From NCBI GenBank assembly GCA_903813345.2, contig CAIIXF020000009.1, forward strand, positions 29,052,740 to 29,116,739: 64,000 nt of DNA, in the 5' to 3' direction. The notes under the pieces were generated by a model that worked only from the letters and a program-made list of their open reading frames with translations, searched no databases and was not told the origin of the DNA. Position numbers and translations under genes: made by a program. Origin of the DNA: Owenia fusiformis. Lineage: Eukaryota > Annelida > Polychaeta > Sabellida > Oweniidae. Positions 817 to 10,477 of the stretch are shown piece by piece. Numbering within the stretch: the first letter of the stretch is position 1; each line of letters opens with the position of its first letter.

Positions 817-3800
817 GTACAGGTGATAAGTCAAGCTGTAGAGAGACCAGAATTTGATGACTGCAATCAGGAATTAAAGGATGAGTTATTGTAAGTGATA
901 CATATTAATCCACCTATCACAAGTCACAATGAGAGAAATTAAAGACACAGGGTGAACAATATCGCACTTAATGTGTAGCAAACAAATACACATGCGTACC
1001 ATATTTAGAATAATTCTGAAATGATATTGCAGTACACGAGTGTGTGTGTGATTTATGATAACTCTAAAAAGGCTTGAGCAGTTCATATTAAAATATAATG
1101 TGAAACTTAGCCTACATTCTGCTAATATATAGTCTGATCTGACGGGGGCCCTTTAAGTAAATTCATGTTTGATTCCAGAGATTTTATGAAGCAAACTGCA
1201 GAAAAGATCAACAAAGTAAGGCACAGATATGGGGCAGGTATAAACCCCAAAGATCCTCAAATAGCCCCTGGTAAGTTATATGTCACCCTTTCTTTCTTTT
1301 GAAAGTTTCTTATTTGTTGTTTAAATGATATTTGCAAATAGGTAATTCTAGTTTTGTTTCATGAGACCATGCATGTTTATTAGTGCAAATGGACTGTCCT
1401 TTCATGCTAGTTCTATAGTTGGTTTCACAGAAACAATTTCTTCCTCATTAATCCATACATCACTGGCTGATTTTTCCAGCCATAGCAATTGTAAGAAACT
1501 AAGAGCCAACACAATAAAAGAGTAGCATATAGAATCTGTGTTATATCCCTTATGTTAACAGCTTGAACATGTGCTTGTGTATGTTACAGTGGTGTACCAA
1601 CTAGAGAGAATCACATCCACACAGATTGTAGAATTCCTCCTGCTGTGTAGGGAAAAGTTCATGAGGGCAAAGGTTGAACCAGGTTAGTATAGTTATGATA
1701 TGGCCATGCTACCAGCTCAATAGCATTCGTAAAATACTTTGCGTTTAGAGAAGTAGATCTCTTGATCATTCAAAATGGCAAATACAATGATCAGAAGGAT
1801 AGAGTCTCCACTACTAGCCTGAGCTAAATCAGGTGGTTGTGGATTTGATTCCCATGAGGAATGAATGACTTTCACATCAGCTCCTAGCATAGGATTTGAT
1901 GCTATGTTTCAATTTAGTTGAAGAATAAAAACCAAATATTTGATAATGTTATCAACAACTTGTCCTGAAAGTATAAATGTACCAAGTAGAAACTGCATAA
2001 ATATTTAGAAATGAAGTTCATTTTTTAAATCTGCATTTCAGCAACTGCAGTGGGCGCTATATGTGCGCAGAGTATTGGAGAGCCTGGTACACAGATGACC
2101 TTGAAGACCTTTCACTTTGCTGGAGTTGCCTCTATGAATATCCTTTGAACATTTTAGGAAACACTTTCACTCTTTGTTGGTCCATTCTGAACATTTAATT
2201 CATGTCTCTTACGGTATTCCCACATCTTTAACTTATAATTATTAACATTATGCAGAATTTTTTTGTGTCAGCATTTCAGTTATTCGATATAACCCCATTT
2301 TATCTAAACCTGAAATTACTCTACAAAAGAAATCATTCATCTTTCTCTTTCTTAAATAATATTTCTGTTGTAGGCCTACCAAATATTTTTTGATAGATCA
2401 ATACAGCATTCTATACTACACATACTGTGAAATATTCATCAGAATATATTGAAAAATAAAAAAAATTAGAGAGATATTATGAGAACTTTATGATATACCC
2501 TTGTATATTTATACATATCACAGCAAAAAGTCAATTGAACATTGATTAGATTTGATTGATTATAATCCTTAACACTTGGCACATATCACCCTTGGTGTGC
2601 CGCGTATCAAGGAGATCATCAATGCTTCTAAGACAATCAGCACACCAATCATCACAGCACAACTTGATGTGGAAGATGACCAAGAGTTTGCAAGAGTAGT
2701 TAAAGGAAGGATTGAGAAGACAACTCTTGGGGAGGTAAAAAACGAAATCACATTTGTAACAGAATAATTGTTATGAAAAATCTGCTTCATTTTGTCACCA
2801 TTCGGAAATTGTTTCATACATATTGTTACAGTCTCCAATACTTGGATGAGGTTTGGTGGTTGATGGTCAGCATTTGGTGGTTGGGCATTCTGCATCTTTA
2901 ACAAATGTAACAAATGGTGGGTGGTAACATGTTTACATGTTAGCAAGTGTTGCAGTTAACAAGATACAACAATAAACTAATGTCACCCTCCAATTGCAGG
3001 TGTCAGAATATATGGAGGAGGTCTTCCTACCAGATGATATATTCCTACTAGTTAAGCTAGACTTAGAGAGGATACGGTTGCTGAAGCTAGAAGTTGATGC
3101 CGAGTCGATTAAGATTGCTATATGTGCTGCCAAATTAAAGATAAAACCACAGGTCAGAGACAAACCCAAAGTATATCTATGGACATCTACAATTGAATTT
3201 TTAAATGAGTGTTTTGAGAGAGGGTTAAAAGCTCTTTACATTCTTTTGATGATTTTGAAAAATTGAGAACATTTCAGTCATACTTTTGGGGAAGGAGGGA
3301 GTAACCATTCCATCATGTGCCTAGCTCAATTCAAGCTCCTATAGCATACATTACTCTCCTTTTCCATAAGCTTCATTTTAGATGGGAAAGAGTAAAATGT
3401 CAAAACTCTGAATCTAATATGATAAGATGGTGTCACATTAAGTAGATAAATATAATTGTAGTTTGGAATTATCTCAACTACAAGTGAAAGTTATTACAGT
3501 ATTTTTTATCATATTTAAACCGTCACTTCAGAATTCATAAACAATGGCCAAATATGACTTCAGATATTATTCTACCTATTTTATGTCACCAACAAGAGTG
3601 GTGACATATTATTATCTCACTACCAGAAGTTGTGACATATTGTTATAGTTTTCAACATTTTTGTGGACAGTGTTTGGCGTTTATTGTCTGTAACATGGTG
3701 TCTGTAAAAAATAATGGCATCTGTAACAAATGGCAGGTGGTGACATTTTACATGTTAATGCCTTGTGACTTGAAATATTTCTTTCCAGCATGTTATAATT

Positions 3801-9800: not shown

Positions 9801-10477
9801 TACTGTAATAAAGAATTCTTATCTCTGTTTCAGGTGTTAGTGAATGTATCATCATGGGAATCCCAATGAGACTGGGAACCGGGCTCTTCAAATTACTTCA
9901 AAAATATCCTTTTACAAAATAAAATAAATATATCCTAATTGTTAATGGGCATTTTCGTGAAAATGGGCCCGATTTCAGTTGAAATTAATATCCTAATAAT
10001 AATTTCCTTTACTTCCAAATCATAACATTTCCAATGATACCAAAATTCGAAAATTGTCCATGGGGTCAATCAACTTTTAAAGTCCCACTTGGGTATATTA
10101 CTTGTATTTAACAAAAATCCTATGTTCATGGCAGTTCAATCAGAATGACAGCATTGATATTGATGATACACATTGAAAATATATATTTGATACATAATGG
10201 ATATAAAAGTATCTTAGAATGCACAGTCTAGGAATAGCAGCAACAACAAGGTAAATGCAATATATTATGGTTAACATTAAATTCAAATTAAAAAATCAAC
10301 ATTTCCCAAATGTTTTATTTTTTAAACCTATTTCAGAGTGTGTTTGCAATAAATTCAAATTCAAATAGTTCAAATTCCTTAACAGTTTTTACAGCAGACA
10401 GGGGTCCTCCATTGAAGAAGCGTCCATGTGTATTTGATGCTCCTGAACTCCATCTGCCATTCACTGCTGCAACTTGA
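769..10477 (+). CDS. POLR3A: RNA polymerase III largest subunit, C-terminal third (5' part outside window)
   Basis: This is the catalytic largest subunit of nuclear RNA polymerase III, which transcribes tRNA, 5S rRNA and U6 genes. Thirteen exons join in one frame: 769-890, 1179-1270, 1590-1682, 2042-2137, 2583-2734, 3000-3152, 3789-3905, 4194-4302, 6625-6697, 8188-8356, 9563-9626, 9834-9903 and 10393-10477. They total 1395 nt, or 464 codons plus TGA. Exon 2042-2137 carries the trigger-loop signature ([20 protein letters not shown]), followed by [31 protein letters not shown], the [19 protein letters not shown] block and [12 protein letters not shown]. The C-terminus ([20 protein letters not shown]) matches the ending known from animal orthologues. 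The animal protein is about 1390 residues, so roughly two thirds lies upstream. Eleven junctions can be read as GT-AG, except that the donors at 3153 and 4303 are the weaker GTCAG type. Two introns are AT-AC. No exon is broken, so the gene looks functional. Confidence 0.95.
2138..2582 (+). other. AT-AC (U12-type) intron in POLR3A, first of two
   Basis: The intron starts ATATCCTTTG at 2138 and ends CAC at 2582, with the branch-site element TCCTTAAC at 2566-2573, about 10 nt before the acceptor. These are the standard minor-spliceosome signals. A GT-AG reading does not work: continuing past 2137 in frame hits TGA, whereas AT-AC removal joins ATG-A to AT-ATC-ACC and restores the conserved SMNITLGVPR. 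The intron interrupts the gene directly after the trigger loop. Confidence 0.93.
2865..2950 (+). repeat. Intronic repeat just before a POLR3A acceptor
   Basis: The segment with AAATGGTGGGTGGTAACATG then TTTACATGTTA is similar to 3721-3760 (AAATGGCAGGTGGTGACATT then TTACATGTTA) in the next intron. Both lie 30-60 nt upstream of an acceptor. They look like copies of one dispersed repeat. Confidence 0.5.
3584..3752. mobile_element. Short degenerate copy of the ATGTCACCA hairpin element
   Basis: A hairpin, ATGTCACCA then TGGTGACAT-like, lies at 3584-3609. It is followed by a second GTGACATATTGTTATAG stretch and then GTTTGGCG...CTGTAAC, ending in GGTGGTGACATT near 3740-3752. The same order of hairpin, ATATTGTTAT, GGCG-rich stretch and CTGTAAC occurs in reverse complement at 54230-54334, at one end of the large satellite-bearing element. 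This is probably an internally deleted relative inside a POLR3A intron. Confidence 0.5.
4340..4625 (+). repeat. Tandem repeat of about 60 bp rich in AAGGTCAAGGTCACAT
   Basis: Imperfect units of the form ATCTAAAGGTCAAGGTCACATACAATAAGG... followed by GGTCATGTAATGTCAAGGTTGT recur four to five times within a POLR3A intron. A related stretch reappears at 5005-5110 and 5215-5245. Each unit carries TCAAGGTCA. No coding sequence is present. Confidence 0.75.
5005..5245 (+). repeat. Second block of the intronic AAGGTCAAGG repeat
   Basis: Diverged units (AATGTCAAGGTTGTATCTAAA, then ACAATAAGGCCATTTGAGGTC) continue the array seen at 4340-4625, separated by about 380 bp of unrelated intron. A unit at 5105-5125 resembles coding exon 4194-4302 (GTCCAATGTATTGGTGGAGG against the exon's ACAATCTGCTGGTGGAAGG), as does 4615-4640, so parts of that exon appear to have been copied into the repeat. 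Confidence 0.5.
6070..6310. repeat. Dispersed palindromic repeat, copy 1
   Basis: Motifs GCAGGTGTTCAGAATCTG and CTCCTTC, and downstream ATTCTGGATTTT and GCCCTGTGATCGGAGG, match 19990-20112 (GCAGGTGTCCAGAATCCG, ATTCTAGATTTTTGAGCCCTG, GCTCGGAGG). The two halves are partly complementary, as in a small foldback element. This copy has about 100 bp more between the halves. Confidence 0.6.
6697..6771 (+). repeat. Duplicated intron segment, copy 1 (abuts exon 6625-6697)
   Basis: AAACTTTGTAG, AACATTCAAAGAAA and TCTATGAGGCTGTAGAAC recur at 7839-7985. In the second copy the later TTTCTATATATA is followed directly by GTTTAAAATGG, while in this copy it is followed by the transposon at 6774. Confidence 0.65.
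6774..7823. mobile_element. Non-autonomous DNA transposon, 1.05 kb, CAGGGTG-type inverted ends
   Basis: The left end is CAGGGTGTTCCAAAAGTAAC after TA; the right end is its imperfect complement, TACCTTTGGAACACCCCTG. Complementarity extends inward about 200 bp, including GAGTTATGGTTGCTATGGTAAC on the left against GTTACTATAGTAACCATAACTC on the right. No transposase frame remains. The ends suggest a Tc1/mariner-like (IS630) origin, but that is an inference. It sits in a POLR3A intron. Confidence 0.75.
7824..8010 (+). repeat. Duplicated intron segment, copy 2 (holds an empty-site equivalent)
   Basis: The stretch from GTTTAAAATGGC at 7823 through AACTTTGTAG, TCTATGAGGCTGTAGAAC and TTTCTATATATA to GTTTAAAATGGCCACC at 7992 repeats the flanks of the 1.05-kb element without the element, so it approximates the site before insertion. 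Confidence 0.55.
9904..10392 (+). other. AT-AC (U12-type) intron in POLR3A, second of two (last intron)
   Basis: The donor is ATATCCTTTT at 9904, the branch site is a perfect TTCCTTAAC at 10375-10383, and the acceptor is AC at 10391-10392. Splicing joins CTTCAAAA to AGCAGAC, giving LLQKADRG and the expected C-terminus. The distance from branch to acceptor is about 10 nt, typical of this class. Confidence 0.93.

Follow-up and report, generated by a model that had tools for sequence, protein, structure and literature searches.

Two probable minor-spliceosome AT-AC introns in the POLR3A gene of the annelid Owenia fusiformis

We analysed a 64,000-nt stretch of the Owenia fusiformis genome (C9:29052740-29116739; hereafter the window), the first 10.5 kb of which (0.8-10.5 kb) cover the final third of POLR3A, which encodes RPC1, the largest subunit of RNA polymerase III (Pol III). 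Judging from splice signals and from the protein that they interrupt, we are highly confident that two of the roughly 33 POLR3A introns are A-type (AT-AC) U12 introns, which would be removed by the minor spliceosome. In both, the AT-AC ends go with a mismatch-free ATATCCTT donor and with a TCCTTAAC branch element, the branch A lying 10 nt before the last intron base. The ends read ATATCCTTTG ... ATCCTTAACACTTGGCAC in the intron at 2138-2582 and ATATCCTTTT ... TTCCTTAACAGTTTTTAC in that at 9904-10392. An earlier description made from the letters alone (the sequence-only reading) had proposed both introns, with branch elements about 10 nt from the acceptor, and its coordinates and motifs agree with ours. 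Listed below are the two introns, the exons joined by them (placed by alignment to human RPC1) and the ten GT-AG introns of POLR3A in the window, which served as within-gene controls.

2042..2137, forward strand: exon before intron 1, ending in ..FHFAGVASM plus the first base of an Asn codon; human RPC1 residues about 1030-1062
2138..2582, forward strand: probable AT-AC U12-type intron 1, 445 nt, phase 1, splitting the codon of human Asn1062; ATATCCTT 8/8, ATCCTTAAC 8/9
2565..2573, forward strand: putative branch element ATCCTTAAC of intron 1, with its branch A (2572) 10 nt from the intron end
2583..2734, forward strand: exon after intron 1, ending in ...TTLGE
9834..9903, forward strand: exon before intron 2, ending with two bases of a Lys codon
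9904..10392, forward strand: probable AT-AC U12-type intron 2, 489 nt, phase 2, the last intron, splitting the codon of human Lys1365; ATATCCTT 8/8, TTCCTTAAC 9/9
10375..10383, forward strand: putative branch element TTCCTTAAC of intron 2, with its branch A (10382) 10 nt from the intron end
10393..10477, forward strand: last coding exon with the stop codon, opening with the rest of the Lys codon
891..9833, forward strand: stretch holding the ten GT-AG control introns
891-1178, 1271-1589, 1683-2041, 2735-2999 and 3153-3788, forward strand: the first five of the ten GT-AG control introns
3906-4193, 4303-6624, 6698-8187, 8357-9562 and 9627-9833, forward strand: the other five of the ten GT-AG control introns

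Thirteen exons rebuilt by hand give a POLR3A product of 458 aa, of which residues 2-454 match residues 937-1388 of human RPC1 (PDB 7a6h_A) at E 5e-202. Of 454 aligned residues, 310 are identical to human. Matches to yeast RPC1 (2.4e-116), to the best RPB1 (7.1e-54) and to the best RPA1 (7.9e-39) ranked lower; by these alignments, in which RPC1 stands ahead of both RPB1 and RPA1, the gene is an orthologue of POLR3A. To cover the rest of the gene, 27.2 kb of upstream sequence were joined to the window and the human protein was placed by tblastn, which recovered exons from human residue 16 to the C-terminal end. We mapped 31 of about 33 introns, i.e. all except those at the first coding exon and at the exact start of one exon within a tandem array. 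Twenty-nine are GT-AG and two are AT-AC.

Joining the exons at the AT-AC edges yields VASMN-ITLG (GVASM-N-ITLG) and LLQ-KADR (LLQ-K-ADR). For 24 of the 31 introns we compared all stop-free in-frame GT-AG, GC-AG and AT-AC cuts within 90 nt of the anchors, allowing the product to differ in length from the human protein by at most 4 residues. At both AT-AC junctions the protein can be rebuilt with an AT-AC cut, and within 90 nt there was no GT-AG or GC-AG cut that does so; the sequence-only reading had named these boundaries as the only ones to restore SMN-ITLG and LLQ-KADR. For each of the other 22 introns a GT-AG cut is available and outscores every AT-AC cut. If cuts with any ends are admitted, several equal or slightly exceed the score against human (at the second junction an AA-TT cut reaches 41 vs 39), so the choice of cut rests partly on the dinucleotide ends, and this applies to every intron.

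U12 signals were scored by comparing donors with RTATCCTT (8 positions) and the region 8-21 nt before the acceptor with the branch element TTCCTTAAC (9 positions). The consensus of A-type U12 donors and branch elements is in line with the scores obtained, 8/8 plus 8/9 in intron 1 and 8/8 plus 9/9 in intron 2; the remaining 29 introns reach at most 6/8 for the donor and 6/9 for the branch. When the ends of the 31 introns were shuffled 20,000 times, none of the 620,000 shuffled introns attained 8/8 together with at least 8/9. By themselves, U12 motifs prove nothing, as they are common by chance in the DNA of the window: ATATCCTT occurs five times vs 4.4 expected, and TCCTTAAC-N(4-10)-AC twice vs 0.84 expected. 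Since single motifs are no commoner in the window than shuffles allow, the case rests on their position at the exon edges.

The genome (498 Mb, 525 contigs) contains genes of the minor spliceosome. Searching all of it, we found two genes for U6atac (best E 4.8e-23), two for U12 (4.7e-25), two for U11 (4.8e-17) and one for U4atac (3.1e-14), all matches lying above the Rfam gathering scores. U6atac starts with GTGTTATAAGAAAGGAGAGAAGG and U12 contains GTAAGGAA, the segments that pair with the donor and with the branch element, respectively. Duplexes of the genome's own U6atac with the two AT-AC donors reach -6.5 and -6.9 kcal/mol, compared with a mean of 0.6 and a best value of -4.2 for the other 29 donors. 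The proposal of two U12-type AT-AC introns in POLR3A is well supported at the sequence level, and genes for the four minor small nuclear RNAs (snRNAs) are present. CENATAC (CCDC84) is represented by four exon matches above cut-off on contig C10. In human cells, this protein is required above all for AT-AN introns, and its depletion affected 92% of A-type vs 24% of G-type minor introns (PMC8280824).

As a control from the same genome, in PHB2 an exon ends at GTATCCTT, and TTCCTTGAC lies 12 nt ahead of the AG at the next exon; by these signals the intron (piece L019, reverse strand, 2742-3770) is of the U12-type GT-AG class, and because of it the genome very likely has minor introns outside POLR3A. 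A fly/human list of U12 hosts includes PHB2, with AT-AC ends in fly (PMC2831892), so that a switch of subtype relative to fly is possible if the intron position is the same.

Some observations weigh against the assignment. In free duplexes with U11 and U12, the scores of the two AT-AC introns overlap with those of the 29 controls. The nine matches to the zf-U11-48K model carry little weight, as this short model also matches in 2 of 14 control genomes. It has to be kept in mind, too, that the 29 GT-AG cuts were picked with GT-AG ends in mind, several of them scoring slightly below the best any-end cut against human.

Splicing of both introns by the major (U2) spliceosome would be an alternative to the U12 assignment. 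U2-type AT-AC introns do exist, e.g. in sodium channel genes, but they have a G at +5 (PMC2831892), whereas +5 is a C within a full ATATCCTT in both POLR3A introns; with a U12 branch element 10 nt from each intron end, we grant this alternative almost no chance. A further reading concerns intron 2 only, which might be unused or optional, the protein normally ending by read-through or by an AT-AG cut 2 nt further on. Read-through does give a short in-frame end, KYPFTK and a stop, and an AG (10393-10394) directly adjoins the AC acceptor (10391-10394 together). However, the tail encoded by the downstream exon aligns with the human C-terminus (KADR.P...KRP..FD..E.H.P) and the AT-AG cut would shift the frame by two, which makes this reading very unlikely.

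The simplest reading is that of an ordinary pair of minor introns. According to this proposal, U11 and U12 would recognise donor and branch element, and U6atac would then displace U11 at the donor. Both AT-AC introns would be removed, possibly at a slow pace, from a transcript with some 31 ordinary introns, and full-length RPC1 would require both spliceosomes. On this basis, POLR3A expression is likely to depend mildly, through splicing kinetics, on how active the minor spliceosome is, with no dedicated regulatory circuit.

One of the introns was said to lie directly after the trigger loop; intron 1 instead splits an Asn codon inside the trigger-loop segment, in what we take to be its distal part. 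If intron 1 is retained, the frame continues as NIL* (Asn-Ile-Leu, stop) within this segment, and the RNA should be a decay target because the stop lies upstream of eight introns. Retention of intron 2 leads to KYPFTK*, the conserved last 27 residues being swapped for five. Such an RNA may escape decay since intron 2 is the last intron.

Early stops upon retention of either AT-AC intron lend some appeal to the idea, already labelled as speculation in the sequence-only reading, that Pol III output is subject to feedback: Pol III makes U6atac, U6atac limits POLR3A splicing, and POLR3A limits Pol III. Both U6atac genes may be Pol III-transcribed: they have a TATA element at -30/-32 and, at the 3' end, where transcription should stop, a T5 run; a 3' T run is found in none of the five other minor snRNA genes, but two of these five also have a TATA element near -30. 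In human cells, U6atac is short-lived, limiting and dependent on Pol II and Pol III (PMC3728624), but POLR3B-deficient human cells showed raised, not lowered, U6atac (PMC10896340). Furthermore, the C-terminal intron is apparently absent in mammals, neutral processes have been argued to explain much of minor-intron evolution (survey, PMC10639083), and motif scanning of this genome's POLR3B revealed no U12 intron. The latter gene was matched by tblastn with the human protein (residues 24 to 1132); its 16.1 kb contain no 8/8 donor on the coding strand, and none of the exon edges showed a donor-branch pair, in a scan that would miss weaker U12 sites. All in all, we regard such a circuit as quite unlikely, and feedback on Pol III as speculation, a testable guess.

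A bolder version, in which a positive loop specific to this lineage runs from Pol III via short-lived U6atac and AT-AC intron removal to RPC1, and in which the last intron gives a decay-proof, tail-less form, is a decidedly long shot. As part of the same joint speculation, and at equally long odds, the intron at codon 1365 would be a gained AT-AC intron; it is read as a gain because mammals appear to be without it. Gains of this intron class are held to be rare. If the loop were true, Pol III output would amplify swings in minor-spliceosome activity.

Descent of the two introns from a common, spreading intron finds no support: compared by blastn they share only short matches (E 0.09 or worse) and, over their length, they resemble no other sequence of the genome, the sole genome match of intron 2 being itself. 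A common origin of intron 1 with introns of the polymerase paralogues was dismissed as well, as the frame is continuous across the trigger-loop site, without an intron, in this genome's POLR2A and POLR1A (identities checked against solved structures). Motif scans of the coding strand of 18.0 kb (POLR2A) and 19.0 kb (POLR1A), with exons unmapped, detected no clear donor-branch pair; the POLR1A piece contains one 8/8 donor-like site that lacks a branch partner. No spliced POLR3A retrocopy, the presence of which would be proof of splicing, was seen among four genome matches; this does not prove that there is none.

Apart from this, intron 1 contains a dispersed repeat of about 160 bp (intron positions about 211-371; window about 2348-2508) with at least 40 other matches at 87-93% identity on many contigs. 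Tandem arrays that straddle splice sites were another feature of the polymerase genes, making up 4 of the 19 tandem arrays found in POLR3A and POLR3B (the two in POLR3B judged by eye). In POLR3A, 6.1 copies of a 69-bp repeat (window 402-821) hold a 3' splice site and exon start, and about four copies continue in one open frame; 1.9 further copies lie about 4 kb upstream (piece L009, 5853-5982). The layout is alike in a larger POLR3B array of 133 bp x 7.9 (L017/L018 joined, reverse strand, 8164-9211; about C11:33916190-33917237): every copy comprises the acceptor and the start of one exon, and the last copy alone extends into the full exon. Exon end plus GT donor are repeated in a 31 bp x 21 array of POLR3B (L017/L018 joined, reverse strand, 13806-14464) and in a 19 bp x 3.6 array of POLR3A (window 9611-9679). 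In addition, open frames recur every 1259 nt (16506, 17765 and 19024) within a POLR3A intron (L008 and L009 joined, positions 16299-19140), a long tandem repeat beyond the 500-bp limit of the repeat finder.

Assuming that the U12 assignment is correct, an essential polymerase subunit would be added to the likely hosts of minor introns, linking the enzyme expected to make U6atac with the splicing machine that needs U6atac. Should retention track the levels of U6atac or CENATAC, the gene would become a test case for the purpose of minor introns, with a direct read-out in tRNA and U6atac synthesis.

For mammalian POLR3A, papers quote six human intron positions, namely c.1048, c.1771, c.1909, c.3337, c.3429 (the end of the 93-bp exon 26) and c.4025. 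Four of these (c.1771, c.1909, c.3337 and c.4025) recur here at the same codon and phase, whereas c.1048 and c.3429/3430 are without counterpart. Published exon numbers place c.4037 in exon 31 (PMC9664542), define c.4025-1 as an acceptor (PMC7064625) and show that the mouse gene ends with exon 31 (PMC11065635). From these we infer that mammals are without an intron at codon 1365, a site that would fall inside exon 31. For codon 1062, neither c.3184 nor c.3185 was found in the POLR3A papers searched, and exon numbers are compatible both with a human intron at this codon and with its absence.

Among the closest known systems are the A-type (AT-AC/AT-AN) U12 introns of PHB2, STX6, KCMF1 and PROX1 in the fly/human list (PMC2831892). 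They resemble those of POLR3A in their AT-AC ends, the ATATCCTT donor, a TTCCTTAAC branch element near the acceptor and their low number among many U2 introns; the host, POLR3A, is different. Among the open PMC full texts listed, none was found, by term counts or in the excerpts covered, to name POLR3A as a U12 host, which does not mean that it has never been published as one. The sequence-only reading had called AT-AC introns a small minority of the U12 class, which understates their share: it is 24% (PMC8280824) or about 26% (PMC10639083) of human minor introns, and GT-AG:AT-AC ratios in U12DB range from 3:1 to 1:1 (PMC2831892). Moreover, clustering of U12 introns within genes was significant (P < 0.05) in each of the 21 tested genomes that have them (PMC7367187). 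Because of this clustering and because AT-AC introns make up about a quarter of the human ones, two in one transcript, put forward as notable, are only mildly so. Most mammalian sodium and calcium channel genes likewise carry two U12 introns per transcript (PMC2831892); unlike in these genes, both introns of POLR3A are AT-AC, and the host is an RNA polymerase subunit.

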